Assembly: GCF_025961475.1 (NCBI RefSeq)
Contig: NZ_JAOQNS010000010.1
Coordinates: 124,001 to 188,000 of the forward strand
Reading direction: 5' to 3'
DNA: 64,000 nt
From: Rhodobium gokarnense
GTDB taxonomy: Bacteria > Pseudomonadota > Alphaproteobacteria > Rhizobiales > Rhodobiaceae
The stretch's first letter is position 1. Each line of letters starts with the position of its first letter. The translations under genes were made by a program, and so were the position numbers. Positions 20,633 through 60,868 of the stretch are shown piece after piece. The notes below the pieces were generated by a model, which worked only from the letters and a program-made list of their open reading frames with translations, made no database searches and was not told the origin of the DNA.

Positions 20633-20635
20633 CGC

Positions 20636-22006: not shown

Positions 22007-22073
22007 TTGTACGGGTTCCTGTTTCCTCCGCCGCCATATTGGCGGAAGAGGGGACTGGATACAGCCCCTTTTC

Positions 22074-22292
22074 TCAAGCGGCGGGAACCCGCACCTTTTC
22101 CATGGCCTGAAGCACCAGCGGGTCGAGGCCCTGGCCGCCGGCATCGACATAGGCGCCAAGCTGGGAGCGCATGCGCGGCTCCCAGAAGTCGTTAATATGG
22201 GCGGCGACCTTTTCCGCCCGGTCGGCATTCGGCTGGCTGTTGAAGAAGCCGGCGATCTGGTTGGCCATGTGGACCATCTTTTCAGGCGACAT
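22074..22292 (-). CDS. fdsD: Formate dehydrogenase delta subunit
   Basis: 72 residues. The MVHMANQIAGFFNSQPN...HINDFWEPRMR pattern is diagnostic of the small FdsD subunit of soluble NAD-dependent formate dehydrogenases. It helps assembly or stability of the Mo enzyme. The ATG at 22290-22292 lies 11 bp inside the end of fdhD, as in other fds operons. The 24 residues that could be added upstream are an fdhD shadow. Confidence 0.88.
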   Translation of the reverse strand: MSPEKMVHMANQIAGFFNSQPNADRAEKVAAHINDFWEPRMRSQLGAYVDAGGQGLDPLVLQAMEKVRVPAA

Positions 22293-23118
22293 CGGGGTCT
22301 CCGTCGACAATGCGCTCCGGCGCGGCATAAAGGTCGAAGCCGCCGCCACGGGCAAAGGCGGCAAGGGTCAGGCCGGCGTCCTCGGCCAGCTTCAAGGCGC
22401 GGGCCGTCGGTGCGGAGGCGGCGATGAGCACGGGCGTCCCGGCGACGACCGTCTTCTGCACCATCTCCACCGAGACCCGGCTGGTCAGCACCACGGCGCC
22501 GGTGCCGGCATCGATGCCGGCGGTGATGAGCGCGCCGATCAGCTTGTCGAGGGCGTTGTGGCGGCCGACATCCTCGCGGGCAAGGACGATGCCCTTGCCC
22601 GGAAGCAGGAACCCGGCGGCATGGACCGCACGAGTCTGGTCGTGGAGCGGCTGCAGGTCGCGTAGCGCCTCCGTAGCCTCAGCCACTTCGGCGGCGGAAA
22701 AGACCGGGCCGCCTTCGGGCAGCACAGGGAGCGGGCGCAGGGCCTCTTCCAGGCTGTCGATGCCGCAAAGGCCGCAGCCGATCGGCCCGGTCATCGCCCG
22801 GCGGCGCGCCTTCAAGGCCTTGGAGCGGTCCGCGGCGAGCCAGAACCGGGCTTCCAGGCCGTTGTCGTGCTCCAGCACCGTCAGTTCGGCGATCTGGTCC
22901 CGCGTCTCGACGATCCCTTCGGACAGGGCAAAGCCGAGAGCAAAATCCTCGATGTCGGCCGGGGTCGCCATCAGGACGGCGTAGGTGGTGCCGTCGAAGA
23001 CCATGGCGACCGGCTCCTCGTCCGGCAGGCTGCGCATCACGCCGCGCCTTGCGGTCGGCTGCACGGCGATGCCGGGGAGGCTGCGGGCAGCATGGCTGCG
23101 GGTTGCGCGGGCTGCCAT
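22282..23118 (-). CDS. fdhD: Formate dehydrogenase accessory sulfurtransferase (FdhD/FdsC)
   Basis: 278 residues. FdhD passes sulfur from the IscS desulfurase to the molybdenum cofactor so that FdsA becomes active. The catalytic loop CGLC (in IGCGLCGID) holds the two persulfide-carrying cysteines. Other family blocks are EDFALGFALSEGIV, VGRHNALDKLIG and LTSRVSVEMVQK, and ASAPTARALKLAEDAGLTL lies near the C-terminus. It starts 4 bp after the fdsA stop and overlaps fdsD by 11 bp, so it is in the FdsC position of the operon. Confidence 0.95.
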   Translation of the reverse strand: MAARATRSHAARSLPGIAVQPTARRGVMRSLPDEEPVAMVFDGTTYAVLMATPADIEDFALGFALSEGIVETRDQIAELTVLEHDNGLEARFWLAADRSKALKARRRAMTGPIGCGLCGIDSLEEALRPLPVLPEGGPVFSAAEVAEATEALRDLQPLHDQTRAVHAAGFLLPGKGIVLAREDVGRHNALDKLIGALITAGIDAGTGAVVLTSRVSVEMVQKTVVAGTPVLIAASAPTARALKLAEDAGLTLAAFARGGGFDLYAAPERIVDGDPDVA

Positions 23119-23122
23119 TCAG

Positions 23123-26020: not shown

Positions 26021-27534
26021 TCTGCGGCCTCCCGTGCCGGTGCGAAGTCGTCTGGGAAATGGGTGAGGGCGGACATCACCGGGAACGGCGTGAAGCCGCC
26101 GAGCGCGCAGAGCGAGCCGCCGCGCATGGTCTCGCAGAGGTCGGCGAGGAGGGCCGGCGCGTCCGGGTCGCCATGGGCGATGCGGTCGATGGTCTCGACG
26201 CCCCTGACCGCGCCGATGCGGCAGGGCGTGCACTTGCCGCAGCTCTCGATGGCGCAGAACTCCATGGCGAAGCGGGCCATCTGCAGCATGTCGACCGTGT
26301 CGTCGAAGACGACGATGCCGGCATGGCCGATGAGGCCGCCCTGGCCGTCGAATTCCTCATAGCCGAAGGGCGTGTCGAATTTCTCCGGCGGCATATAGGC
26401 GCCGAGGGGGCCGCCGACCTGCACGGCCTTGACCGGCCGGCCGGAGGCGGTACCGCCGGCGATCTCGTTGACGAGTTCGCCGAGCGGCATGCCGAAGGCG
26501 GTCTCGAACAGGCCGCCATATTTGACGTTGCCGGCGATCTGGATCGGCATCGTGCCCTTGGAGCGGCCGAGGCCGAAATCGGCGTAGTGCTCGGCGCCCT
26601 TTTCAAAGATCGCCGGGATGGTGGCGAGCGACAGGAGGTTGTTGACGACGGTCGGCCGGTTGAAGAGCCCGCGATAGGCCGGCAGCGGCGGCTTTGCCCG
26701 AACGACGCCGCGCTTTCCTTCCAGGGAGTTCATCAGCGAGGTTTCCTCGCCGCAGACATAGGCGCCGGCGCCGATGCGCAGCTCCAGATCGAAGCGGCGG
26801 TCGGAGCCGAGCACGTCCGGGCCGATGAGGCCGCGCTCAAGGGCGATCCCGATGGCCTCGGCAAAGACCGCGTTGGCGTCGGGATATTCGGAGCGGCTGT
26901 AGACGTAGCCCTTGGTGGCGCCGACGCCGAGGCCGGCGATCACCATGCCCTCGATGAGGACGAAGGGATCGCCTTCCATGATCATGCGGTCGGCGAAGGT
27001 GCCGCTGTCGCCCTCGTCGGCGTTGCAGATGATGTATTTCTGGGCGCCCTTGGCGTGGAGGACCGTTTCCCACTTGATACCGGTCGGGAAACCGGCGCCG
27101 CCGCGGCCGCGCAGGCCCGAGGTCTTCACTTCCTCGACGATGTTCTCGGAGGTCATTTGAATCGCGCGCCGGAGGCCGGCGAGGCCGCCATGGGCCTCAT
27201 AATCATCGATGTTCAGCGGATCGATCAGGCCGCAGCGGGCGAAGGTGAGCCGGGTCTGGCGGGCAAAGAAGGGGATTTTCTCAACGTCACCGAGGGTCTC
27301 GAGCGTGCCATCGAAAAGGGCGGGGACGTCGTCGACGGTGAGCGGGCCGTAGCCGCGCCGGCCGTCCGCGTCCTCGATTTCGACCAGCGGCTCAAGCCAA
27401 ACCATACCGCGGGTGCCGTTGCGCACGATCTCCACGTCGAGGCCGCGGGCGTCGGCTTCTGCACGGATGGCGGCGGCGACGTCGTCGGCGCCGAGCGCCT
27501 TGGCGGCGGCGTCAAGGGGAACGTAGATCCTCAT
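26017..27534 (-). CDS. fdsB: NAD-dependent formate dehydrogenase beta (diaphorase) subunit
   Basis: 505 residues. An N-terminal thioredoxin-like 2Fe-2S-type domain of about 110 residues precedes a NuoF-like core. The FMN/NAD site is in LRGRGGAGFPTGIKW and NADEGDSGTFADRMI. EETSLMNSLEGKRG follows, and the C-terminal 4Fe-4S cluster is bound by CGKCTPCRIG plus a later Cys near GGSLCALGG. It hands formate electrons from FdsA to NAD+. It overlaps fdsA and fdsG by 4 bp each. The N-terminal domain here lacks most cluster cysteines. Confidence 0.95.
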   Translation of the reverse strand: MRIYVPLDAAAKALGADDVAAAIRAEADARGLDVEIVRNGTRGMVWLEPLVEIEDADGRRGYGPLTVDDVPALFDGTLETLGDVEKIPFFARQTRLTFARCGLIDPLNIDDYEAHGGLAGLRRAIQMTSENIVEEVKTSGLRGRGGAGFPTGIKWETVLHAKGAQKYIICNADEGDSGTFADRMIMEGDPFVLIEGMVIAGLGVGATKGYVYSRSEYPDANAVFAEAIGIALERGLIGPDVLGSDRRFDLELRIGAGAYVCGEETSLMNSLEGKRGVVRAKPPLPAYRGLFNRPTVVNNLLSLATIPAIFEKGAEHYADFGLGRSKGTMPIQIAGNVKYGGLFETAFGMPLGELVNEIAGGTASGRPVKAVQVGGPLGAYMPPEKFDTPFGYEEFDGQGGLIGHAGIVVFDDTVDMLQMARFAMEFCAIESCGKCTPCRIGAVRGVETIDRIAHGDPDAPALLADLCETMRGGSLCALGGFTPFPVMSALTHFPDDFAPAREAAE

Positions 27535-49699: not shown

Positions 49700-50197
49700 A
49701 TGGGCAGGGTGCGCAATTCGGCCGAGCTTTTCGCGACCCTGCTGCTGTTCTGGATCCTGTTGAACGGAACCCTGGCGCCCGGCACGCTCGCCGTCGGCGC
49801 CGCCGCGGCCATCGCCATCGTCCTCTTCTACACGGACGGGCTGTCGTTCCTGTCTCACTTCCGGCCGGTGCCGAAGTCCTTCACCGCTTCCGTCCTTTTC
49901 GTCTTCTATTTCCTCGGTGAGTTGGTCCGCTCCAACATCGCGCTTGCGCGGATCGTGCTGTCGCCGGAGCTGCCCATCAAGCCGGGCATCGTCAAGGTGC
50001 GCACCAGGCTGAAGAGCCCCATGGGCCGGCTGCTGCTCGCCAATTCCATCACGCTGACGCCGGGAACGCTCTCCGTCGAGCTCGCCGGCGAATGGCTCTA
50101 CGTGCACTGGGTGACGGTCGACGCCACCGACAATGAGGGGGCGACGGCAAAGATCGTCGCCGGCTTCGAGCGCTATCTTGAGGTCATGTATGGTTGA
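49700..50197 (+). CDS. MrpE-like subunit (MbxA position) of a complex-I-like antiporter module
   Basis: 165 residues from the ATG at 49700; an upstream ATG at 49661 lacks a ribosome site. It has two or three N-terminal membrane helices and a soluble C-terminal domain (SPMGRLLLANSITLTPGTLSVEL), the MrpE/MnhE signature. In Mrp antiporters this subunit is small and peripheral. Here it opens an operon whose members overlap by a few bases each, so subunits are made in fixed proportion. In archaeal membrane-bound hydrogenase and MBX complexes the equivalent is subunit A. Confidence 0.9.
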   Translation: MGRVRNSAELFATLLLFWILLNGTLAPGTLAVGAAAAIAIVLFYTDGLSFLSHFRPVPKSFTASVLFVFYFLGELVRSNIALARIVLSPELPIKPGIVKVRTRLKSPMGRLLLANSITLTPGTLSVELAGEWLYVHWVTVDATDNEGATAKIVAGFERYLEVMYG

Positions 50198-50450
50198 GGT
50201 CCTGATCACCGTCGCCGGTGTCATCGCCGGCGCGGCCTTCTTCCTGGCGCTGGTGCGCTTCGTCAAGGGCCCGCGCGCCGTCGACCGGGTCATCGCCTTC
50301 GACGTTCTCACCATCATCGCGATCACCGGCATGGTGCTGGTGGCGCTCGTGGAAGGCCGGGTCATCTATCTCGACGTGGCGCTGGTCTATGCGCTGCTCT
50401 CCTTCCTCGGCGTCATCGTCATCGCCCGCTACCTGGAAGGGGCGTCGTGA
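50190..50450 (+). CDS. MrpF-like subunit (MbxB position)
   Basis: 86 residues with three membrane helices. The motif FVKGPRAVDRVIAFDVLTIIAITGMVLVAL is the MrpF/MnhF core. It overlaps the MrpE-like gene by 8 bp. Part of the Na+/H+ antiporter-like arm of the complex; archaeal equivalent is subunit B. Confidence 0.92.
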   Translation: MVEVLITVAGVIAGAAFFLALVRFVKGPRAVDRVIAFDVLTIIAITGMVLVALVEGRVIYLDVALVYALLSFLGVIVIARYLEGAS

Positions 50451-50779
50451 TGCTGGATCTCCTCGGCGCCATCGTGCTCGTTGCCGGCACCGTGTTCCTG
50501 CTGCTCGGCGGGCTCGGGCTCTACCGCATGCCGGACACCTTCAACCGCATCCAGGCCGGCACCAAGACGACGACCCTCGGCACGCTCCTGACCCTTGCCG
50601 GCGTCGCCCTCCTGGAACCGGCCTGGACGTTGAAGCTGCTGCTCATCGGGCTGTTCCTGCTGTTCACCAACCCGTTGTCATCCCAGGTGCTGGCGCGGTC
50701 CGCGCACCGCACGCGCGTGGCGCAGACGCATGAGGTTCAGGTCGACCGGCTCGCCGACGATACGGGAGAGACGGCATGA
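50450..50779 (+). CDS. MrpG-like subunit (MbxC position)
   Basis: 109 residues from the ATG at 50450, which shares its A with the preceding TGA. Three membrane helices; the LGLYRMPDTFNRIQAGTKTTTLGTLL segment is the MrpG/MnhG signature. A hydrophilic tail of about 25 residues follows the last helix. Archaeal equivalent is subunit C. Confidence 0.92.
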   Translation: MLDLLGAIVLVAGTVFLLLGGLGLYRMPDTFNRIQAGTKTTTLGTLLTLAGVALLEPAWTLKLLLIGLFLLFTNPLSSQVLARSAHRTRVAQTHEVQVDRLADDTGETA

Positions 50780-51036
50780 GCGCGTTCCTGCCCGTCATGA
50801 GCGTCGTCGTCGCGCTCGCCACCATCGGGGCGGCGTTCGTTGCCATCCGCGTTGACAGCCTGCCGGTGGCGATCCTGTCGGCCGGCGCCGTCTCGCTGTT
50901 CGCCTCGGTGCTGTTCCTGATCCTTGCCGCGCCGGACGTCGCCATGACGGAAGCCGCGATTGGCAGCGGGCTCACCACCTTCCTCTTCTTCTTCGTCCTC
51001 GGACGGGTCGGCGGCGGGGAGCAGGACAATGATTAG
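50776..51036 (+). CDS. DUF4040/MbhD-like membrane subunit (MbxD position)
   Basis: 86 residues with three membrane helices. The AAPDVAMTEAAIGSGLTTFLFFFVL segment matches the DUF4040 part of MrpA/MrpB and archaeal MbhD/MbxD. In Mrp this piece is fused in MrpA; its separate form is characteristic of the hydrogenase/MBX-type arrangement. It ends in a short polar tail and overlaps the next gene by 8 bp. Confidence 0.88.
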   Translation: MSAFLPVMSVVVALATIGAAFVAIRVDSLPVAILSAGAVSLFASVLFLILAAPDVAMTEAAIGSGLTTFLFFFVLGRVGGGEQDND

Positions 51037-51733
51037 GCACGCGCTCGCCGTCATCTTCCTCATCGGCCTCGGCACCGTCTTTGCCGGCCTCATGCTCGGC
51101 TATACGCCCGATACCGAACTGAACCTGACAGCCCGCTACTACGCGGAGAACACGGCCAAGGACCTCGGCGCCGCCAACATCGTCACGGCGATCATCGTCA
51201 CCTATCGCGGGCTCGATACCCTCGGCGAAGTGACGGTGCTGTTCCTGACGGCGGCGATCGTCGCGCTGGTGCTCGCCCAGTCGCGGCATCAGCCCGGCGC
51301 GCCGCAGCGGGTGCTGCCGCCGTCCGGCGAATTGCTGCATACCGGCAGCCGGCTCTTGGTGCCGCTGATCGTGCTCTTCGGCGTCTATGTCTTCGTCAAC
51401 GGGCATCTGACGCCGGGCGGCGGCTTCCAGGGCGGCGCCATCGTCGCCTCGTCGATGCTGCTGTTGCTTTTGACCGATCCGCTGCGCCGCTTCGGCCACC
51501 GCATGATCGCGCGGGTGGAATCGCTGTCGGGGCTCACTTACGTGGCCCTCGGCGCCCTCGGCCTCGTCCTTGCCGGCGGTTTCCTCGACAACCGCATCCT
51601 GCCGCTTGGCGACTTCGGATCGCTGTTCTCGGCCGGCGCCATCCCGATCATCTATTCGCTGGTCGGCCTCAAGGTCGGGGCGGAATTCAGCTCCATGCTG
51701 GTCAATCTTTCCGAGACGGAGAAGCCGCAATGA
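51029..51733 (+). CDS. Fused MbhE-like and MrpB-like subunit (MbxF position)
   Basis: 234 residues from the ATG at 51029. The first 90 residues resemble MbhE or the MrpA C-terminus (IVTAIIVTYRGLDTLGEVTVLF). Residues about 105-225 are an MrpB/MnhB domain (FGVYVFVNGHLTPGGGFQGGAIVAS). The fusion explains why no separate E subunit is present, as I recall for archaeal mbx, which skips E. Ion-translocating membrane part of the complex; 4-bp overlap with the next gene. Confidence 0.85.
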   Translation: MIRHALAVIFLIGLGTVFAGLMLGYTPDTELNLTARYYAENTAKDLGAANIVTAIIVTYRGLDTLGEVTVLFLTAAIVALVLAQSRHQPGAPQRVLPPSGELLHTGSRLLVPLIVLFGVYVFVNGHLTPGGGFQGGAIVASSMLLLLLTDPLRRFGHRMIARVESLSGLTYVALGALGLVLAGGFLDNRILPLGDFGSLFSAGAIPIIYSLVGLKVGAEFSSMLVNLSETEKPQ

Positions 51734-52086
51734 TCCTCGTTGCCATGGCGGCCGGGTTCCTGCTGATCCTGATGGGGCTCTACGGCGCGCTGACCAACCG
51801 CAACATCCTGCGCATGATCGTCGCCTTCACCATCGCCAGCACGGGGGTGAACTTGGTGCTGGTGTCGGTCGGCTACATTGCCGGGCGCACGGCGCCGATC
51901 CTCGATGCGGCCGTGCCTGTCGCTAAGGCCGCCGAGCGGATCATCGATCCCGTGCCGCAGGCGCTCGTGCTGACGGCGATCGTCATCGGCCTCGGCATCA
52001 CCGCGTTGATGCTCGCCTACGCCTTCAAGCTCTACGAGACCAAACGCACGCTCGATATCTCCAAATTCACGGAGCTAAAAGGGTGA
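51730..52086 (+). CDS. MrpC/NuoK-like subunit (MbxG position)
   Basis: 118 residues with three membrane helices. LYGALTNRNILRMIVAFTIASTGVNLVLV and QALVLTAIVIGLGITALMLAYAFKLYE are the MrpC/MnhC/NuoK core, which carries conserved membrane acidic residues in complex I. It overlaps the fused antiporter gene by 4 bp. Confidence 0.92.
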   Translation: MILVAMAAGFLLILMGLYGALTNRNILRMIVAFTIASTGVNLVLVSVGYIAGRTAPILDAAVPVAKAAERIIDPVPQALVLTAIVIGLGITALMLAYAFKLYETKRTLDISKFTELKG

Positions 52087-55000
52087 GCCCGATCCTGATC
52101 ATCGCCATCGGCCTCGGCACCGCGTTCCTGCTGGCCTTCCTCGACAACCGGCTGCGCGCCACGGCCTACGCCATCACGCTTGCGGCGCTCGCAGTCATGA
52201 GCTGGATCGCCGCCGACTGGCTGCTCGCCCTGTCCTCCGGCGCCACCGGCCCGGTCGAAATCTTCACCGCCGGCACCAAGCCGCCCTTTGCCATCAATCT
52301 GCGCATGGGGCTCGCCGAGGCCGCGCTGACGCTGCTGATCACGGTCACCGGGCTCCTTGCGGCCGTCTTCCTGAAAGAGCCGATGATGCGGCTCGGGCGG
52401 CGCTCGATGGCGGTGCTCCTGATCGCCACCATGTCGTTCGCCGGCATCGTGCTCACCCGCGACATCTTCAATCTCTTCGTCTTCTTTGAGCTCGCCGTCA
52501 TCTCCACCGGTGGGCTGGTACTTCTCTCCGACGACGCCCGCGCGCTGTCTGCCGGCTTCAAATATCTGATCGTCTCGCAGGTGATCTCGATCCTGCTCCT
52601 TATCGGCATCATCTTCCTCTACCACGCCGGCGGATCGCTCAATATCGACGACCTCGCCGCGGCGTCCGCCGCCGGCAACTCGACGGTGCTCGTCAAGTCC
52701 GGCGCGCTCGCCTTCTTCCTGCTCTTCATTGCCCTCGTTGCCGAACTGAAGCCGTTCCCGGCGAATGGCTGGGCGCTCGATATCTACGAGTCCGCCCATC
52801 CGGCGTTCTCCGCGATCTTTTCGGCCGCCGCCGGTGCGGCGTCCCTCTATGCCGTCGACAAGGCGCTCCTCATCGGCGGGCCGGCCTGGCTGCCGGTGGC
52901 GACCGCCATCGGGCTTTCCACCTTCGTCGCCGCCAACGTTTTGGCGCTGTCCCAGACCAGCGACCGGCGGCTTCTCGGCTATTCGTCGGTGGCGCAGATC
53001 GGTCTTGTCTTCGCCGTCATCGGCCAAAAGGAACTCCTTGGCGACCAGTATCTGTTCATCGCCGGCGGTATCCTCCTTGCCCATGCCGTTGCCAAGGCCG
53101 GGCTCTACTGGCTCTCCGGCACGCTGCCGGAGCGCGCGCTGACCTCCTGGGCCGAGCTGAAGCACCATCCGGTGCTGCTCTTTGCCTTTGCCTCCTTCGT
53201 TGCCATGCTGGTCGGTCTGCCGCCGTTCCCGGGCTTCTACGCCAAGTGGCAGCTCGCCCACGCGCTCGCCGCCGACGGCCGCTACCTGGTGCTCGGGCTG
53301 ATCCTGCTCGGCGCCCTCATCGAGGCCGGCTACCTGTTCCGCTGGTTCGGCTATGCCCTGAAACGCGAGGCGCCGGCGCAGCAGGTCGACCTGTCGCTGC
53401 ACAAGATCGGTGTGGTGCTGGTCGCCGTCGCCGCCGGTTGGGGCCTCGGTTACCTCTGGGGCGACCTTTCCGGCCTCGGCAATGTGCTGACGGCGCTGCC
53501 GCTGCTCTTCGCGCTCGCCTTCCTTGCGCTGGACTGGCTGCCGGCGAAGGTCAAGAACGCGATTGCGATTGCCGGCCTCGTCGCCTGGTTTTTTGTCAGC
53601 TACCCGGACTACGACCCGCTGCGGCTCATCTTCGGCGTCATCATCCTGATCGGCGGCGCGGTCATCCTGCTGGCAAGCTTCGAGACGCACGGCCGCCGCG
53701 TCGGCTTCTATCCGTCGGCGATGCTGATGTATGCCGGGCTCGCCATGCTGATCGTCGCGCAGAACTCGTTCGCGTTCTTCGCGGCCTGGGAAATCCTCAC
53801 CCTCGGCTCCTATTTCCTGATCCTGAGGGGAAAGAAATCCGAGCCGCATGCGCTCTCCTACGTCGTCTTTTCGCTCGGCGGCGCCTTTGCGATCCTCGCC
53901 GGCTTTGCGCTCGCGGCACAGGGCGTCCAGCCCTTCGCGCTCGCAAATCTTGCGGACGTCTCGGCGACCTTTGCGCCCTACGTCTTCATCCTCCTTGCCG
54001 CCGGCTTCATGACCAAGACGGCGGCCATCGGGCTCCATATCTGGCTACCGGGCGCGCATGCCGAGGCCGAGACGGACGTCTCGCCGATGGTTTCCGGCAT
54101 CCTGTTGAAGGCCGGGCTCTACGGCTTCTTCATTCTCCTGATGACCATGGGCAAGACGGAGTTCTACGGCGTCGAACTGACCTATGTGCTGCTGTGGATC
54201 GGCGCGCTGTCGGCGCTGCTCGGCAATCTGATGGCGATCTTCCAGGAGGACGCCAAGCGGCTGCTTGCCTATTCCTCCATCGGCCAGATGGGCTATGCGC
54301 TCTTCGGCCTTGCGCTGATGAACCATCTCGGCTGGCTGATGGCGCTGATGTTCGTCATCAACCACTATGTCTACAAGTCGATGCTGTTCCTGTCCGTCGG
54401 CGGCATCGCCAAACGCACCGGCACCAAGCTGATGTACCGGATGGGCGGGCTCATCACCCTGATGCCGCTCTCCTTCATCGCCGTTCTCGTCGGCATCATC
54501 GCCATGTCCGGCGTGCCGCCGCTCTCCGGCTTCGGCGGCAGGTGGATCTTCTACAACGCCATCATGAGTTCCGACGACCGGCTGCCGATGGTCGTCATCT
54601 TCCTCTCCGGCCCGATCGCCTTCCTCTACCTCTTCCGGCTGATCCACACGATCTTCCTCGGCCAGCTCAAGGACGAGCACCGGCGCCTGAAGGAGGCTCC
54701 GTTCTGGATCATCCTGCCGCAGATGCTGTTCGTGGCTTTTCTCATCGGCTTTGCGATCTTCCCGGGCCTGGCGCTGCGCCGCGTCGATGCCTATCTCGGC
54801 ACGTTTTTCCCCAACCACGGCCTTGCCTGGGAGGGCCTGACGATCACCAGCGAGTACGGCTACTGGAGCCCGGTCTCCATCATGATCGTCGTCGCCGCCA
54901 TCTTCGTCGTGCTCCTTGCCTGGCTCGTCTTCCTCAACCACAAGGCCCAGAAGGTGAAGCAGTTCAACATCGTCTTTGCGGCGGAACGACCCTATCGCCC

Positions 55001-55226
55001 CGAAACCACCCATTTCGCCTGGAATTTCTTTGCGCCCTACCGCAAGGCGATGGGCTTTCTGACCGAGCCGCTGGTCACCCGCTTCTGGGGCGGCATCACC
55101 GGCACGCTGCACGGCACGGCGGAGCTGACCCGGCGGTTCTATACCGGTGACGGTCAGGTCTACGCCTTCCACTTCGTCGGCTTCGTCGTCATCGTCTACC
55201 TGCTCTCCATGGGGGTGCGGCCATGA
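52083..55226 (+). CDS. Fused double antiporter-like subunit (MbxH plus MbxH')
   Basis: 1047 residues from a GTG that overlaps the previous stop. Two complete MrpD/NuoN-like antiporter units lie in tandem. Unit 1 (about 1-480) has the helix-5 Glu in NLFVFFELAVIS, the helix-7 Lys in ELKPFPANGW and LLGYSSVAQIGLVFA. Unit 2 (about 530-900) has Glu in FFAAWEILTLGSYF, Lys in FMTKTAAIGLHIWLPGAHAEAETDV and LLAYSSIGQMGYALFGLAL. Each keeps the Glu/Lys pair needed for proton movement. A C-terminal membrane segment follows. Related subunits are normally about 490-510 residues, and archaeal MBX has two separate genes, so this is a fusion that fixes two pumps per complex. Confidence 0.92.
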   Translation: MSPILIIAIGLGTAFLLAFLDNRLRATAYAITLAALAVMSWIAADWLLALSSGATGPVEIFTAGTKPPFAINLRMGLAEAALTLLITVTGLLAAVFLKEPMMRLGRRSMAVLLIATMSFAGIVLTRDIFNLFVFFELAVISTGGLVLLSDDARALSAGFKYLIVSQVISILLLIGIIFLYHAGGSLNIDDLAAASAAGNSTVLVKSGALAFFLLFIALVAELKPFPANGWALDIYESAHPAFSAIFSAAAGAASLYAVDKALLIGGPAWLPVATAIGLSTFVAANVLALSQTSDRRLLGYSSVAQIGLVFAVIGQKELLGDQYLFIAGGILLAHAVAKAGLYWLSGTLPERALTSWAELKHHPVLLFAFASFVAMLVGLPPFPGFYAKWQLAHALAADGRYLVLGLILLGALIEAGYLFRWFGYALKREAPAQQVDLSLHKIGVVLVAVAAGWGLGYLWGDLSGLGNVLTALPLLFALAFLALDWLPAKVKNAIAIAGLVAWFFVSYPDYDPLRLIFGVIILIGGAVILLASFETHGRRVGFYPSAMLMYAGLAMLIVAQNSFAFFAAWEILTLGSYFLILRGKKSEPHALSYVVFSLGGAFAILAGFALAAQGVQPFALANLADVSATFAPYVFILLAAGFMTKTAAIGLHIWLPGAHAEAETDVSPMVSGILLKAGLYGFFILLMTMGKTEFYGVELTYVLLWIGALSALLGNLMAIFQEDAKRLLAYSSIGQMGYALFGLALMNHLGWLMALMFVINHYVYKSMLFLSVGGIAKRTGTKLMYRMGGLITLMPLSFIAVLVGIIAMSGVPPLSGFGGRWIFYNAIMSSDDRLPMVVIFLSGPIAFLYLFRLIHTIFLGQLKDEHRRLKEAPFWIILPQMLFVAFLIGFAIFPGLALRRVDAYLGTFFPNHGLAWEGLTITSEYGYWSPVSIMIVVAAIFVVLLAWLVFLNHKAQKVKQFNIVFAAERPYRPETTHFAWNFFAPYRKAMGFLTEPLVTRFWGGITGTLHGTAELTRRFYTGDGQVYAFHFVGFVVIVYLLSMGVRP

Positions 55227-56128
55227 CCTTCGAATGGATGAAGATCCCCTTCGCCCTCCTGACGCTCTTCATCGTCGTCAATTACGGGCTGCTCTTGACC
55301 GCCTTGATGCAGAAGATCGCGGCCCGGGTCGGCGGGCGCCACGGCATCCCGATCTACCAGAACTACATCGACCTTCTGAAGAACTACGCGCTGAGGAGCG
55401 CCATCACCCACGGCTTCATGTTCTATCTCGGCCCGGTGTTCCGGCTGACCGGCGGCGTCGGCCTGCTTCTCTTCGTGCCGATCATCTACGGCTCGCCGAT
55501 GTTCTCCAACATGTCGTTCGCCGGCGATCTGATCCTTGCGCTCTATTTCATCTTCTTCGGCTCGCTCGGCATGGCGCTCGGCGCCGGCGAGAGCGGCCAT
55601 CCCTATTCGGCGATCGGCGTCACCAGAGGCCTCTCGCAAGTCACCATGGCCGAACTGCCGCTGGCACTCGCGGTCTTTGCCGTTGCCGTTCAGTACCAGA
55701 CGCTGTCGATCACCGAGATCGTCGCGGCCCAGCAGGGCGGGTTCCTGCACTGGACGCTCTTCACCAATCCGCTGGCGGTGATCGCCGCCATGCTCTCCTT
55801 CCTCGGCTCCATGATGCGCCCGCCCTTCGACGTGGTGCTGGCGCCGCAGGAAATCCCGATCGGGCCGCCGACCGAATACCACTCGGCCTATCTGGCGCTG
55901 ATGCAGACCAACCGGGTGATCTTCCCGATCGCCAAGATCGTCATCTTCATGAACCTCTTTTTCGGCGGCGCGTCGAACTGGCCGGTCTTCTTCGTCAAGG
56001 TCTTCGCGATCTACATGGTCTCGGTGCTGGTCGGCGTCGTCTTTCCGCGCTTCCGGGTCGAGCAGTCGATCCGCTGGTTCATGGTCTGGGCCGTGCCGAT
56101 CGGCATCGCCGCCATTCTCATCGTCTGA
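55223..56128 (+). CDS. NuoH-like membrane anchor subunit (MbxM position)
   Basis: 301 residues with eight predicted membrane helices. It is homologous to NuoH/MbhM, the subunit that joins the peripheral arm to the pump arm. Family blocks are RHGIPIYQNYIDLLKNYALRS, FFGSLGMALGAGESGHPYS, MMRPPFDVVLAPQEIPIGPP and GPPTEYHSAYLAL. The acidic loop after helix 5, which passes coupling to the pumps in complex I, seems kept. It overlaps the antiporter gene by 4 bp. Confidence 0.9.
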   Translation: MTFEWMKIPFALLTLFIVVNYGLLLTALMQKIAARVGGRHGIPIYQNYIDLLKNYALRSAITHGFMFYLGPVFRLTGGVGLLLFVPIIYGSPMFSNMSFAGDLILALYFIFFGSLGMALGAGESGHPYSAIGVTRGLSQVTMAELPLALAVFAVAVQYQTLSITEIVAAQQGGFLHWTLFTNPLAVIAAMLSFLGSMMRPPFDVVLAPQEIPIGPPTEYHSAYLALMQTNRVIFPIAKIVIFMNLFFGGASNWPVFFVKVFAIYMVSVLVGVVFPRFRVEQSIRWFMVWAVPIGIAAILIV

Positions 56129-56138
56129 GGGGACAACG

Positions 56139-56840
56139 ATGGAAGCCTTCGTCAAACCGGGCGAGAAGAACCGCCTGAAGGAGCGGCCCGAGCGGCCCGC
56201 CAAGGAAGAGCTGCAGCCGCGTGTGGTGACGACGCCGGACGGCCAGGAGATCACCGTCGAGCCGCTGAAGGACTACTATTGCGAGGCGCCGCCGAAGGTC
56301 CATCCGCCGGCCTATTTCAAGATCGTTGAAGACCTCTTCAACTGGGCGCGGGCGGAATCCATCTGGATCCTCGGCTTCGGCACCGGCTGCGGGGCCATCG
56401 AGATGCGGCCGCTGATGACGCCGCGCTTCGATGCCTATCGCTACGGCATCCAGTGGCGGCCGACGCCGCGCCAGGCCAACCTCTTCGTCATCTCCGGCTA
56501 TCTCTCGGTGAAGACCCTGAAGCGCGCGATCCGCTCCTACGAGCAGATGCAGAACCCGAAATACGTCGTTGGCCTCGGCTCCTGCACCATCAATGGCGGC
56601 ATGTACTGGGACAGCTACAACACCATCAAGCGGCTCGACCGCTACCTGCCGGTCGACCTCTACATCACCGGCTGCATGCCGCGGCCGGAGGCGCTGCTCG
56701 CCGGCTTCCTGGAATTGAAGAAGATCATCAAGGCCGGCAAGGGCGAGGGCGCCAACCGCTATGCGGAGAACTTCGCCTGGTACAAGGCCAACCAGAAGCA
56801 GGTGATCCACGACTGGGACATGCCGGACTATAGCTGGTAA
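56139..56840 (+). CDS. NuoB-like Fe-S subunit with three cluster cysteines (MbxJ position)
   Basis: 233 residues with an N-terminal extension of about 60 residues. Alignment by eye with E. coli NuoB (SCCYVEM, MGACANSGGM, PGCPPRPEA) gives C84 in FGTGCGAIEM, C149 in GLGSCTINGG and C179 in TGCMPRPEA. The second Cys of the NuoB tandem pair is G85, and the CxxC of hydrogenase small subunits is also absent. This would leave one iron of the proximal 4Fe-4S cluster without a Cys ligand; C48 is the only other cysteine nearby. A three-Cys, site-differentiated cluster is the proposed catalytic site in archaeal MBS, so this substitution is likely functional, not decay. Confidence 0.88.
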   Translation: MEAFVKPGEKNRLKERPERPAKEELQPRVVTTPDGQEITVEPLKDYYCEAPPKVHPPAYFKIVEDLFNWARAESIWILGFGTGCGAIEMRPLMTPRFDAYRYGIQWRPTPRQANLFVISGYLSVKTLKRAIRSYEQMQNPKYVVGLGSCTINGGMYWDSYNTIKRLDRYLPVDLYITGCMPRPEALLAGFLELKKIIKAGKGEGANRYAENFAWYKANQKQVIHDWDMPDYSW

Positions 56841-56846
56841 CGCGCC

Positions 56847-57380
56847 ATGAAAGACCTCATCGACCGGCTGGGCACGCTTTTCACGCTCGGCGACATCACC
56901 GAAAAGCGCGACGACCTTGCCTTCGTCTCCGTCGCGCCGGACCTCCTTCGCGCCGTCATCACCCATTTGCGTGACGTGGAGGGTTTTTCTCATCTGGTGC
57001 TTTTGACCGCCGTCGACTGGATCGAGGGCGGCCGGTTCCAGCTCACCTATCTGGTCAACAACCGCACAAAGGCCTGCGATATCGGCCTTCGCGTCTTCAT
57101 CGACCGCGAGGAGGCGACGATGGCGGGCATCCACGACCTCTGGCCGACGGCGGCGACCTACCAGCGCGAACTGAAGGAGATGTTCGGCATCGACTTTCCG
57201 GGGAGCCCGCGCATCGACGAGGAGTTCATCCTGGAAGGCTGGACCGACATCCCGCCCTACCGGCGCGACTTCGACACTAAGAAATACGCCGAGGAGACCT
57301 ACTTCCATCGGCCGGGCCGGGAGACCTTCGATCCGGCGACGCACATGAAAGACAAACTCTATCCGGGCGAGGCCTCCTGA
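56847..57380 (+). CDS. NuoC-like subunit (MbxK position)
   Basis: 177 residues, the NuoC/MbhK fold. The family signature ELKEMFGIDFPGSPRIDEEFILEGWTDIPPYRRDF is intact. It packs against the NuoD- and NuoB-like subunits in the peripheral arm and carries no cofactor. It is a separate gene, not fused to the NuoD-like gene as in E. coli NuoCD. Confidence 0.92.
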   Translation: MKDLIDRLGTLFTLGDITEKRDDLAFVSVAPDLLRAVITHLRDVEGFSHLVLLTAVDWIEGGRFQLTYLVNNRTKACDIGLRVFIDREEATMAGIHDLWPTAATYQRELKEMFGIDFPGSPRIDEEFILEGWTDIPPYRRDFDTKKYAEETYFHRPGRETFDPATHMKDKLYPGEAS

Positions 57381-57381
57381 G

Positions 57382-58560
57382 ATGGCGCTTTTCGAACTCG
57401 ACCGCAGCCAATATCCGGAAACGAGAGCCGACGGCAGTCTCGACATCGACCTTACCTCCGGCAAATACCTGAAGCTCTGGCAGGGGCCGCAGCACCCCGG
57501 CATCACCGGCAATATGTCGGTGGAGCTGACCGTGTGCGGCGACGAGGTCGTCGAGGGGCGGACCCATGTGGGCTATCTGCATCGCGGCTTCGAGAAACTC
57601 ATGGAGCGGCGCACCTTCATCCAGTGCTTCCCGATCGTCTGCCGCATCTGCGTGCCGGAGCCGGACTTCAACGAATATTGCTACGCTGCGGCCGTCGAGG
57701 AACTGGCGGGCCTGGAAGTGCCGGAACGGGCGCACTGGATCCGCACGCTGATCCTGGAGATGGGCCGCATCAACAGCTACATGATGTATCTCGGCGGTCA
57801 GGCCGGCGCCTTCGGCATGGGCGTCATCGGCCAGTGGGCGACCTATGTCCGCGACCTGATGCTCGACCGGTTCGAGGAAATGACCGGGGCGCGCATCTAC
57901 CACATGTTCATCCTGCCCGGCGGCGTCCGCGACGGCCTGCCGGAAGGCTTTGCAGTGCGCATGGAGGAAACGCTTCAAGAGGTCGAACGGGCCCTGAAAG
58001 ACATCAACGACGTGATGTACTGCAATGCCGTCTTCAAGAAGCGCACGGTCGGGGTCGGCGTCATAGAGCCGGAGATGATCGAGCCCTACGGCGTCACCGG
58101 CCCGAACGCGCGGGCGGCGGGCGTTGCCAAGGACGTGCGCAAGGACCAGCCCTATCTGGTCTATCCGGAACTCGACTTCGAGCCGGTCGTCGGAAAAGTC
58201 TCCGACATCTACACGAGGGCCGACGTCCGCCGCCGCGACGTCCACGTCTCCATCGACCTGATCCGGCAGATTCTTTCAAAAATGCCGAAGGACGGGCCGG
58301 TGATGTCGAGGCTCCCGAACGTCCTCAACTGGAAGATCCCGCAAGGCGAGACCTATATCCGCGGCGAGTGCTCGCGCGGCGAATACGGCTACTATCTCGT
58401 CACCGACGGCTCCGGCTATCCGCGCCGGGTCAATGTGCGCGGGCCGTCCTACACCCACGCGATGGCCTTGCTCGAAAAGCTGATCGTCAACGCCAACATT
58501 TCCGACGTCGCCGGGCTGATGGTGTCGCTGCACACCTATCCGCCAGAAATCGAGCGCTAG
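57382..58560 (+). CDS. NuoD/hydrogenase-large-subunit-like protein with CxxC and ExxR (MbxL position)
   Basis: 392 residues, related to NuoD and [NiFe] large subunits. The N-terminal block is IVCRICVPE with C87 and C90, equivalent to the first hydrogenase CxxC; NuoD has DRLD there. The C-terminus ends PPEIER, so E389-x-x-R392 replaces the second hydrogenase CxxC. CxxC plus ExxR is the MBX/MBS pattern: no Ni-Fe site, no hydrogenase. The GPQHP motif is kept, but the quinone-binding Tyr region of NuoD is changed. The protein should form the active-site wall around the proximal cluster. Confidence 0.9.
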   Translation: MALFELDRSQYPETRADGSLDIDLTSGKYLKLWQGPQHPGITGNMSVELTVCGDEVVEGRTHVGYLHRGFEKLMERRTFIQCFPIVCRICVPEPDFNEYCYAAAVEELAGLEVPERAHWIRTLILEMGRINSYMMYLGGQAGAFGMGVIGQWATYVRDLMLDRFEEMTGARIYHMFILPGGVRDGLPEGFAVRMEETLQEVERALKDINDVMYCNAVFKKRTVGVGVIEPEMIEPYGVTGPNARAAGVAKDVRKDQPYLVYPELDFEPVVGKVSDIYTRADVRRRDVHVSIDLIRQILSKMPKDGPVMSRLPNVLNWKIPQGETYIRGECSRGEYGYYLVTDGSGYPRRVNVRGPSYTHAMALLEKLIVNANISDVAGLMVSLHTYPPEIER

Positions 58561-58571
58561 GGGAGGGCAAC

Positions 58572-60371
58572 ATGACCGTTCAGGACGTCCTTTCCCCCTT
58601 CACCGCCTGGAAGAACCTCTTTCGCGATCCGGTCACCGTGCGCGATCCCCTGACCGAGCGGCCGGGGGCGGCGCGCTATCGCGGCTTTCACAAGAACGAC
58701 GTTGCGGAGTGCATCGGCTGCGGCACCTGCGAGGCGATCTGCCAGAACGCGGCCATCGACATGGTGCCGGTCGAGGGCATCGAGACGAAAGAGGGCGATT
58801 CCGGCCTCAGGCCGCAGATCGACTATGGCCGCTGCTGCTGGTGCGCGCTCTGTGTCGACGTCTGCATGACCGGCTCGCTGACCATGTCGAACGAATATAC
58901 CTGGATCGACAGCGACCCGGACGCGTTCCGCTTCGTCCCGGGCGTGGACCACAAGTCCTGGGACGACGCAGACCTCGGTTATCACCGGCCGGACGGCCAT
59001 CGGCTGACGCCGCCGGAGCGCATCGTCATGCGCGAGATGGACCCGGAGCGGCGGATCGGGAACTTCGAGGAGATCGTCGACGGCTATTCGGTAGATGAGG
59101 CACGGGCGGAGGCGGAGCGCTGCGTCGCCTGCGGGCTCTGCGTTGCCACCTGCCCGGCGCACATGTCGATCCCGGACTATATCGCCACCATCCGCGAGGG
59201 CGACTACGAGGCGGGGCTGAAGCTTCTTTACGAGACCAACCCGTTCAGCCAGGTCTGCGGCCGGGTCTGCACCCACAAATGCGAGACCGTCTGCGCCGTC
59301 CACCACGAGGGCGATCCGATCGCCATCCGCTGGCTGAAGCGCCACGTCACCGACCACGTCGACCGCGACCGCTTTGTGGACATCATCGGCCGGCCGGCGG
59401 GCGAGACCGGCCACAAGGTGGCCATCGTCGGCGCCGGCCCGGCGGGGCTCACGGCGGCCTTCGACCTTGCCCGCATGGGTCATGCGGTCACCGTCTTCGA
59501 AGCGCGCAAGCACCCCGGCGGCATGACCCGCTACGGCATCCCGGAATACCGGCTGCCCTATGACGCGCTCGATGCCGATGTGGATGTGATCCGGGCGATG
59601 GGCGTTACGATCGAATGCGACACGCCGATCGGCGACAAGGTCACGATGGCGACGCTTGAAAAGGACTTCGACACGGTGCTCGTCGCCATCGGCCTCCATC
59701 TCGGCCGTTCGACCCGCATTCCGGGCTCCGACCGTCCGAAGGTCGCCAAGGCCGTCGACCTCCTGCGCGCCATCACCGACGGCGAGACCATCGACGTGCC
59801 GAAGACCGCCGTCGTCATCGGCGGCGGCAACGTCGCCATGGACATCGCCCGCAGCCTCGCCCGGCTGCAGAAGCAGACCTATGGCGAAGTCGGCATGACG
59901 GTGACGGCGCTGGAGGACTTTTCGCACTTCCTCGCCGATCCGGAGGAGGTGAAGGAATCCTTCGAAGAGGGGATCGAGATTTTTGACGCCCGCGGCCCGC
60001 AAGAGGTGCTGGTCGACGAGGCCGGCAACGTCACGGGCCTGAAGACCTGGAAGGTCGTTTCCATCTTCGACGACAAGGGCCGCTTCGCACCGACCTATGA
60101 CGAGGGCGACGAGCGCATCCACGCTGGCGAGATGGTGATCGAGGCCATCGGCCAGGCGGCGGACGTCGCGCTCCTCGGCGAAGACCTCACCGAAAAGCTG
60201 GAATGGAACCGCGGCCGCATCGCCGTCGATGCCGACGGGCGGACCTCCGAGCCGTGGCTGTGGGCCGCCGGCGACTGCGTCAACGGCCCGGACGTCGTCC
60301 ACGCCGTTGCCGACGGCCACCGGGTGGCGGCGAGCATGGATGCGGTCCTCAAGGCAAAGGAGCTGTCGTGA
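58572..60371 (+). CDS. Fused NuoI-like ferredoxin and NfnL/GltD-type NAD(P)H-FAD oxidoreductase (MbxN position)
   Basis: 599 residues. Residues about 40-105 are a two-cluster NuoI/MbxN-like domain: C47-x2-C50-x2-C53-x3-C57 and C88-x2-C91-x2-C94-x3-C98. From about 160 on, it is a GltD/NfnL-type protein: one CxxCxxCxxxC (184, 187, 190, 194) and a CxxxCxxxCxxxC set (229, 233, 237, 241), then an FAD site GAGPAG (287-292), a pyridine nucleotide site GGGNVAMD (417-424) and the C-terminal FAD end AAGDCVNGPDVVHAVADGHR. Electrons from NAD(P)H could pass through flavin and up to four clusters to the NuoB-like subunit. The donor could be NADPH or NADH; the residues do not decide. Confidence 0.88.
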   Translation: MTVQDVLSPFTAWKNLFRDPVTVRDPLTERPGAARYRGFHKNDVAECIGCGTCEAICQNAAIDMVPVEGIETKEGDSGLRPQIDYGRCCWCALCVDVCMTGSLTMSNEYTWIDSDPDAFRFVPGVDHKSWDDADLGYHRPDGHRLTPPERIVMREMDPERRIGNFEEIVDGYSVDEARAEAERCVACGLCVATCPAHMSIPDYIATIREGDYEAGLKLLYETNPFSQVCGRVCTHKCETVCAVHHEGDPIAIRWLKRHVTDHVDRDRFVDIIGRPAGETGHKVAIVGAGPAGLTAAFDLARMGHAVTVFEARKHPGGMTRYGIPEYRLPYDALDADVDVIRAMGVTIECDTPIGDKVTMATLEKDFDTVLVAIGLHLGRSTRIPGSDRPKVAKAVDLLRAITDGETIDVPKTAVVIGGGNVAMDIARSLARLQKQTYGEVGMTVTALEDFSHFLADPEEVKESFEEGIEIFDARGPQEVLVDEAGNVTGLKTWKVVSIFDDKGRFAPTYDEGDERIHAGEMVIEAIGQAADVALLGEDLTEKLEWNRGRIAVDADGRTSEPWLWAAGDCVNGPDVVHAVADGHRVAASMDAVLKAKELS

Positions 60372-60868
60372 TGCCGGAAGGACGCGGCTACCAGCGGCTG
60401 AAGCCGCTCACCAACCTCAAGGACATCCTCGACGTGGCGACGGAGTTCGAGCGCACGGCGCGGGATTTCTACAAGGACCTCGTTCCGAAGGTCTCCAAGA
60501 ACATCCGCTATCTGGTGGAGGAACTGGCCGAAGAGGAGCAGGAGCATTTTGATCTCTTTGCGGACCTCGCCAAACGCGACGACCTCGGCGACCTCGTCAG
60601 GCAAGAGATCGAGCGGCCGGCGAGCGACCGGAAATTCTCCGACTGCGTGCACCTTCCCGACCTCGGCGAGAAGCCGGACGACCAGGCGGTGCTGCAATAC
60701 GCGCTCATGCGCGAGCATGCGGCGATGGAGCAGTACACGGTGCTGGCGGACCGCACGCCGCCGGGGCCGGTGCACGACCTTTTCCGGTTCCTCGCCAACG
60801 AAGAGACCAAGCACAAGAACGAGCTTGAGGCGATCTATTACGAGATCGTCCACAGCGGCGGGGTGTGA
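60371..60868 (+). CDS. Rubrerythrin-like diiron ferritin-family protein
   Basis: About 165 residues, with the ATG sharing its A with the previous stop. Four-helix ferritin fold with two ExxH-type ligand pairs: EEEQEH in helix 2 and EETKH near the C-terminus, plus helix Glu residues in EFERTARDFY and REHAAMEQY. No rubredoxin domain is visible. Such proteins bind a diiron centre and remove peroxide or oxygen, or act as accessory proteins. As the last gene of the operon it may protect the cluster-rich complex from oxygen, which is an inference from position. Confidence 0.82.
   Translation: MPEGRGYQRLKPLTNLKDILDVATEFERTARDFYKDLVPKVSKNIRYLVEELAEEEQEHFDLFADLAKRDDLGDLVRQEIERPASDRKFSDCVHLPDLGEKPDDQAVLQYALMREHAAMEQYTVLADRTPPGPVHDLFRFLANEETKHKNELEAIYYEIVHSGGV

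Follow-up and report, generated by a model that had tools for sequence, protein, structure and literature searches.

An MBX/MBS-type complex with an NfnL-like electron-input module in Rhodobium gokarnense: a putative reversible NADH:sulfane-sulfur oxidoreductase

Rhodobium gokarnense has an ordinary NuoD elsewhere in its genome (G000:C11), so the MBX/MBS-type operon described here, at 49700-60868 of a 64,000-nucleotide stretch of contig NZ_JAOQNS010000010.1 (this whole stretch is called the window below), encodes an extra complex, and the question is what such a complex does in an alphaproteobacterium. The operon consists of 13 tightly packed genes on the + strand, which together specify a complete MBX/MBS-type complex. 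On sequence evidence we consider it fairly probable that this bacterial complex is a reversible, ion-translocating NADH:sulfane-sulfur oxidoreductase. The genes are as follows.

49700..50197, + strand: mbxA-like (MnhE/MrpE), 165 aa, ATG at 49700; PF01899 MNHE, E 7.8e-40
50190..50450, + strand: mbxB-like (MnhF), 86 aa; PF04066 (MrpF), E 2.8e-17
50447..50779, + strand: mbxC-like (MnhG), 110 aa, GTG start; PF03334, E 5.4e-24
50776..51036, + strand: mbxD-like (MbhD), 86 aa; PF13244 MbhD, E 8.8e-16
51029..51733, + strand: MbsE-like (MbhE + MnhB), 234 aa; PF20501 MbhE, E 4.6e-9, and PF04039 MnhB, E 1.6e-23
51730..52086, + strand: mbxG-like (MnhC/NuoK), 118 aa; PF00420 (Oxidored_q2), E 1.2e-21
52083..55226, + strand: fused double antiporter H-H', 1047 aa, GTG start; two Proton_antipo_M stretches
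55223..56128, + strand: mbxM-like (NuoH), 301 aa; PF00146 (NADHdh), E 1.8e-45
56139..56840, + strand: mbxJ-like (NuoB; Oxidored_q6), 233 aa, with C84, C149 and C179; 6u8y_J, 222 bits, and tree
56847..57380, + strand: mbxK-like (NuoC; Complex1_30kDa), 177 aa; PF00329, E 9.3e-25
57382..58560, + strand: mbxL-like (NuoD; Complex1_49kDa), 392 aa; 6u8y_L, 328 bits, tree and residues
58572..60371, + strand: MbxN-NfnL fusion, 599 aa, Fer4_7 + Fer4_20 + Pyr_redox_2; matches to 6u8y_N and 4ylf_B
60371..60868, + strand: diiron rubrerythrin/erythrin-like protein, 165 aa; PF02915, E 7.3e-12

Every one of the 13 products was named by Pfam above cut-off (some of the query proteins began a few codons upstream of the tabulated starts). 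The junctions, in order, are overlaps of 8, 4, 4, 8, 4, 4 and 4 bp, gaps of 10, 6, 1 and 11 bp, and a final overlap of 1 bp; a promoter scan upstream of the operon gave no match. The 13-gene MBX/MBS-like operon proposed in an earlier, sequence-only reading of this DNA was thus confirmed, by Pfam as well as by the trees and by Pyrococcus furiosus 6u8y being the best match for L, J and the N-terminal part of N. The gene order matches that of Pyrococcus mbx (mbs), A-B-C-D-F-G-H-H'-M-J-K-L-N. The same reading counted two fusions relative to Pyrococcus. Two new fusions do exist, of H with H' and of N with a flavoprotein; the joining of MbhE and MnhB is not new, as Pyrococcus MbsE already combines both parts (transmembrane helices TMH1-2 plus TMH3-6; PMC7684303).

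Relatives were sought with the window L subunit in one genome per species (84,980 species), using two patterns, one of which included T/E at the first quinone position. At a loose limit of E 1e-3 the scan counted 565 relatives, which may include non-MBX or other NuoD-like proteins, and we studied the best 80 of them, with 56-85 percent identity to the window L. They cover nine named phyla: Pseudomonadota (21), Bacteroidota (19), Spirochaetota (14), Cloacimonadota (11), Fidelibacterota (Neomarinimicrobiota; 4), Chlorobiota (3), Calditrichota (2), Myxococcota (1) and Acidobacteriota (1), with four relatives without a named phylum. All eleven genes up to L were found in 43 of the 46 relatives in which L lies at least 9 kb into the locus (the exceptions are L079, L089 and L109). 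A chance assembly of genes is ruled out, because the same gene set recurs beside L across phyla among the 80 relatives.

The complex was scarce in every sample: 2 of 385 genomes in a class draw (match limit E below 1e-100), 6 of 398 in a phylum draw of Pseudomonadota, 4 of the 41 nearest genomes, the window's own genome being counted in all three, and 2 of 138 in a third draw centred on a Bacteroidota genome, the centre counted. Classes are intermingled in the L tree, where inner support is weak; this mixing suggests transfer. Isolates among the carriers are Thiothrix caldifontis DSM 21228, two Celeribacter and Tropicimonas isoalkanivorans DSM 19548. A genus mate (G001) and G384 represent a second, deep bacterial MBX clade with 44-49 percent identity to the window L; the G001 operon (L045, 44 percent in L) has unfused antiporters and the diiron gene.

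The kinship of the complex was examined with L and J. The best PDB match of the window L is P. furiosus 6u8y_L (328 bits), ahead of the best complex I chain (217) and of MBH 6cfw_L (136), and that of the window J is 6u8y_J (222 bits; best complex I chain 137). In a maximum-likelihood L tree of 50 rows, 34 MBX rows and MBS lie on one side of a branch supported at 100/100, 12 complex I rows stand apart (99/98) and three hydrogenases form a third group; in the J tree (33 rows) the window J goes with MBS, away from complex I and the hydrogenases (100/97). MBS is a single reference sequence in both trees, taken from PDB alignments, the complex I and hydrogenase labels in the L tree were assigned from sequence motifs, and the tree program flags MBS, the hydrogenases and L045 as long branches; despite these warnings, the split from complex I is present in both markers. 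The phylogenetic check set beforehand, whether subunits branch inside complex I or the hydrogenases, was run on L and J and showed no such branching.

Trees and residues also agree with the earlier claim that the complex is neither complex I nor a hydrogenase. Complex I is ruled out by the L and J trees and by the absent quinone residues described below, and no NuoEFG genes are present in the operon. A group 4 [NiFe] hydrogenase is ruled out as well, since only the first L1 position (C90) of the four NiFe-ligand cysteines is kept. The C-terminal end of the window L is HTYPPEIER; NiFe-ligand motifs of the RxCGxC and DPCxxC type are present in L023, L037 and L050. Group-4-like subunits without NiFe ligands define Ehr, a broad umbrella that takes in MBX (PMC6349859), and the window complex has such subunits. 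Judged by sequence, it belongs with the MBX/MBS type, on account of its L and J clades, its full Mrp-type membrane arm, its three-Cys cluster and its lack of quinone residues.

The proximal cluster is the part of the complex on which the proposed sulfur chemistry depends. Three J cysteines (C84, C149 and C179 in the window) are invariant in 73 of 73 sequences, window included, and no invariant fourth cysteine was found in J or L of these 73; in the alignment, the adjacent CysCys of the complex I proximal cluster is not kept in the window J. In MBS the three-ligand proximal cluster, with its open iron, is the proposed site of S-S cleavage, and MbsJ C25 as well as MbsL C85 and C385 can be replaced without loss of activity (PMC7684303); the window residues at these positions are G, C90 and Y386. 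The quinone positions of complex I, H38 and Y87 (Nqo4), were located from the PDB alignment of the window L. The first is occupied by T in 83 and by E in 2 of 85 L sequences, and the second by V in all 85; T at the H38 position is also found in all 35 sequences outside the T/E-containing scan pattern.

Other cysteines of MbxL follow patterns of their own. A cysteine is found at 330 or at 386, never at both (44 only 330, 30 only 386, 9 neither, n=83), and in many Pseudomonadota rows positions 52, 82, 87, 90, 100 and 330 are all cysteines. The stretch C87-R-I-C90 takes the place of MbsL C85, which neighbours the proximal cluster, and both C87 and C90 are present in 44 of 85 sequences.

Electron input is the task expected of N. 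Its residues 6-113 match 6u8y_N (MbsN, 80 bits), a NuoI-like domain with two [4Fe-4S] clusters, and residues ~149-596 match NfnL-type and related chains, 4ylf_B being the best (240 bits). The last redox subunit had been described as NuoI-like, which is true of one part of what is also an NfnL-like, 599-aa fusion. The whole protein matches PRK13984/NF010590 ('putative oxidoreductase') at 887 bits, below the cut-off of 946, and its AlphaFold model has a mean pLDDT of 80, the flavoprotein part being mostly above 85 and residues 1-140 mostly below 60. By a strict test the fusion is present in 66 of the 69 loci with 2 kb after L, or in 68 with two longer open reading frames (ORFs; L080 and L112); in the remaining locus, L131, N is split. 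The NuoI-like domain, expected where ferredoxin is the donor of MBX, is retained in the window N, with an NAD(P)H module joined to it.

The NAD(P)H feed proposed earlier is supported by this NfnL-like module, and its motif narrows the prediction to NADH. At the NAD(P) site, YRR-type residues were found in 28 of 78 sequences and an acidic LE motif in 50, the window's among the latter (E453, in a numbering that starts five codons before the ATG of N). Kinetics of DsrL connect YRR with strict use of NADP(H), and the lack of it with a preference for NAD(H) (PMC7596348). As the window N has the LE motif without YRR, and with DsrL as precedent, NADH rather than NADPH is predicted as its cofactor. 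In a quick N tree of 39 rows, motif columns included, the YRR and LE types are two sides of one branch, and nearly all Bacteroidota with a motif call (15 of 16) are of the NAD type. Four Pseudomonadota loci (L089, L108, L119 and L129), a Thiosymbion symbiont and a metagenome-assembled genome (MAG) of Methylococcales among them, are of the YRR (NADP) type.

The antiporter is a fusion as well: its N half matches 6u8y_H (MbsH) and its C half 6u8y_X (MbsH'), and E136, K223, K338, K388, E570, K645, H761 and K765 are identical in 59 of 59 antiporters, window included. By homology, electrons would go from NADH to sulfane sulfur, and ions would be exported. With standard potentials of -270 mV for S0/HS- and -280 to -320 mV for NADH, the computed yield of this transfer is 19 to 38 kJ for each electron pair when sulfide falls from 1 mM to 10 uM, and the computed coupling is 1.1 to 2.2 ions per two electrons at 180 mV. 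By the same numbers, sulfide at high concentration could pass electrons to NAD+ if assisted by a modest gradient.

The substrate, direction, ion and diiron role that we infer can be put together in the following scheme. NADH would bind the NfnL-like half of N; from there the electrons would travel by way of FAD and [4Fe-4S] clusters and arrive at the J proximal cluster. Having only three cysteine ligands, this cluster would leave an iron open, which may face a hydrophobic chamber between L, J and M; there, S-S bonds of polysulfide or persulfide would be cleaved, or in reverse formed. M could link the sulfur chemistry to the Mrp module and the fused double antiporter, the parts that would move H+ and probably Na+. 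In the host, the complex would mainly use NADH to reduce sulfane sulfur, whether stored or bound to carriers, when oxidant is scarce; at high sulfide it could operate in reverse. The diiron protein probably shields the complex from O2 or peroxide, which is our guess at its role.

In the diiron protein, E27, E55, H59, E115, E145 and H148 are among the invariant columns of 16 sequences; we take these residues to be the iron ligands, from the rubrerythrin pattern. Its AlphaFold model shows four long helices (a four-helix bundle; mean pLDDT 84). The gene follows the complex in 17 of 19 Pseudomonadota loci and in 21 of 63 loci overall, and was not found by the window query in any of 15 Bacteroidota and 6 Cloacimonadota loci. 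Since a second ferritin-like family stands directly after N in six loci from groups other than these two (L054, L069, L074, L075, L077 and L084; the L075 representative has a rubrerythrin match), the pairing with a diiron protein may have arisen more than once.

The host's other genes include SoxB (858 bits; soxB was the one sox gene sought), DsrA (596 bits) and RuBisCO. Its rdsr (reverse dsr) cluster carries the NCBIfam names dsrA, B, E, F, H, C, M, K and O (J and P were not searched), with the DsrM match lying below its cut-off, and a PRK12771 protein in this cluster is, by family and place, presumably DsrL. Given the SoxB and rDsr genes, the reaction may run in either direction. The three proteins were searched in 24 carriers, seven further Pseudomonadota carriers being left out, and were found above cut-off in 20 (DsrA), 18 (SoxB) and 17 (RuBisCO); G443 and G787 (L062) have identical DsrA coordinates and are probably one genome, so that the 24 correspond to 23 distinct carriers. 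The background in the Pseudomonadota draw, apparently one identical draw for the complex, DsrA and SoxB counts, was 52 of 398 for DsrA and 60 of 398 for SoxB above cut-off, and all six carriers in it have DsrA (SoxB in three). The link between DsrA and the complex in this draw has a Fisher p of 3.8e-6, or 2.9e-5 without the window's genome, both made optimistic by relatedness.

Several observations weigh against the proposed NADH:sulfane-sulfur oxidoreductase or loosen its tie to Dsr. Three of the six carriers in the draw lack SoxB above cut-off, and 46 genomes of the draw have DsrA without the complex. Three Roseobacteraceae carriers have SoxB and no DsrA above cut-off, and L054, a MAG, has neither, which argues against a strict Dsr link. 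DsrA was absent from 22 of 22 carriers tested outside Pseudomonadota, where the controls also gave no match; the complex thus does not depend on Dsr, and rDsr is ruled out as an obligate partner. Together, the DsrA-free carriers and the 46 complex-free DsrA genomes make the sulfur link a niche correlation, partly shared by descent. The neighbouring genes lend no support to a sulfur role either, as the flanks are not common to the loci: in 17 loci (Pseudomonadota carriers, L054 and the window), flanks being unannotated, no flanking cluster within 6 kb occurred in more than two, with two exceptions that look like response regulators and ABC ATPases. At the positions aligned with MbsH K250 and MbsH' H336 the window has no like residue, and NADH is a weaker donor than ferredoxin, allowing ~1-2 ions per two electrons. 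We know of no measured activity for any member with the N fusion. Finally, a 2013 paper argued against sulfur reduction as the function of a cluster with loose similarity, found in a different bacterium (PMC4053972).

Other functions can be proposed for the same set of genes. It is possible, though in our view doubtful, that the enzyme does its main work in the opposite direction, as a quinone-free sulfide/persulfide:NAD+ oxidoreductase of sulfur-oxidising autotrophs, in which NAD+ would receive electrons from sulfide or persulfide at the expense of an ion gradient and in support of CO2 fixation, with the rDsr pathway operating in parallel in the cytoplasm. The frequency of RuBisCO (17/24) and DsrA (20/24) among carriers would fit this; MBS, however, is known to us only in the reducing direction. 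The NAD-type motif, which in DsrL accompanies sulfur oxidation (PMC7596348), points the same way as the Mrp-Mbx genes of the Riftia symbiont, which are network neighbours of the reductive tricarboxylic acid (rTCA) cycle (PMC11636981), but that type is also the rule in Bacteroidota (15/16), of which those tested are without DsrA. We regard as unlikely an ion-pumping ferredoxin:NAD+ oxidoreductase with an Rnf-like role, in which the NuoI-like domain would receive ferredoxin, the flavoprotein would bind NAD+ and sulfur would have no binding place in the chamber. Such a function, given as ferredoxin:NADP oxidoreductase in some papers (PMC4596419, PMC6349859), was the earlier view of Pyrococcus Mbx, and the N fusion does combine ferredoxin-type and NAD(P) domains; yet it would assign no task to the three-Cys cluster (73/73) or the L/M chamber, and reduction of sulfane sulfur has been demonstrated for Pyrococcus MBS (PMC7684303).

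An NADH:quinone oxidoreductase like complex I, but with another NADH module, seems to us improbable. The overall architecture and the ancestry shared with complex I would suit it, and the host's ordinary NuoD implies that quinone reduction is part of its life, but both quinone-head residues are absent in 85 of 85 sequences, L and J fall outside the complex I clade, and the adjacent CysCys of the proximal cluster is not kept. It is highly improbable that the complex chiefly feeds electrons to the diiron protein for defence against peroxide or O2: the diiron gene is next in 17 of 19 Pseudomonadota loci, and in another family, PRK12775, a weak match, GltD-like and ferritin domains share a single chain, whereas the window query did not find the gene in the Bacteroidota (15/15) and Cloacimonadota (6/6) loci. 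We return to NADH-linked sulfane-sulfur conversion, reversible and coupled to ion translocation, as the function that we propose for the complex.

The surroundings of the operon offered some further observations. In the window, a TRAP transporter lies upstream of the operon and an RpiR-type regulator downstream, on the opposite strand; near the G001 operon (L045) there is a gene that clusters with the window's DctM. A Crp/Fnr-type regulator is found near 16 loci, 13 of which (L079, L094, L096-L100, L103, L109 and L115-L118) have Bacteroidota-type or Chlorobi titles; 12 of 18 regulator ORFs lie within 400 bp of the operon, those inspected are on the opposite strand, and the representative has a cysteine-rich N terminus. 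A dihydroorotate dehydrogenase-like gene follows N in 12 loci, within 400 bp in 11. Elsewhere in the window, at 18656-26233, a formate dehydrogenase-like molybdopterin protein with NuoG-type Fe-S regions, a sigma-54-type response regulator and a sensor kinase adjoin.

Work on MBS has so far treated it as an ancient hyperthermophile enzyme. A conserved counterpart that includes an NADH module, in bacteria with Sox/rDsr genes, would be a candidate for NADH-driven reduction of stored sulfur under anoxia, and equally a candidate for how sulfur autotrophs make NADH cheaply; if the complex ran in reverse, each electron pair lifted uphill to NADH would cost one or two ions, as against a complete passage back through complex I. 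As carrier isolates exist, both roles could be tested in culture. In the literature searched, mostly without subscription papers, we found no NADH-linked MBX in an alphaproteobacterium, no statement of the bacterial complex's own NAD(P)H module or of NAD and NADP types, and none that the complex nests within dsrA carriers, as it does in the Pseudomonadota draw.

Among known systems, respiratory complex I (NuoA-N) shares ancestry and the logic of the membrane arm with the window complex; the window operon differs in having no NuoEFG genes and no quinone residues, and forms a separate clade. DsrL resembles the window N as an NfnL/GltD-like flavoprotein with an extra ferredoxin domain, the same YRR motif logic and a role in sulfur metabolism (PMC7596348). 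Unlike N, DsrL has this domain at its C terminus and not its N terminus, and partners DsrAB; the host's DsrL-like protein scores 714 bits against PRK12771 and 229 against PRK13984, the window N 404 and 887. Being outside a dsr operon and without a C-terminal ferredoxin domain, the window N is ruled out as a DsrL.

The Riftia symbiont is a gammaproteobacterium. For this sulfur oxidiser a 'putative Mrp-Mbx complex' was described, tied by co-expression to the rTCA and not the Calvin cycle (PMC11636981), and we liken it to the window complex from that published description. T. maritima encodes a member of the N-fusion family above cut-off, the only match among 14 control genomes, and this fusion presumably lies in its mbx operon; as a control in the DsrA and SoxB searches of the Pseudomonadota draw, the same genome gave no match at the limits used. 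Its mbxA is up 4.36-fold with S0, and, unlike in the window, ferredoxin is the predicted donor there (PMC9431562). An MBX of this kind had been called unexpected in such a bacterium, which no longer holds with nine phyla among the relatives and the Riftia Mrp-Mbx (PMC11636981) and T. maritima mbx (PMC9431562) in print: the kind itself is known and other bacterial carriers have already been published. The closest comparison is with P. furiosus MBS/MBX (6u8y), which has in common with the window complex subunits A, B, C, D, E, G, H, H', M, J, K, L and N, the three-Cys proximal cluster, the absence of quinone residues and of a NiFe site, and the L and J clades. The window differs in having G and Y in place of MbsJ C25 and MbsL C385, and what is new in it with respect to Pyrococcus is the fusion of the H and H' antiporters, the fusion of the ferredoxin subunit N to an NfnL/DsrL-like flavoprotein, and the terminal diiron gene.

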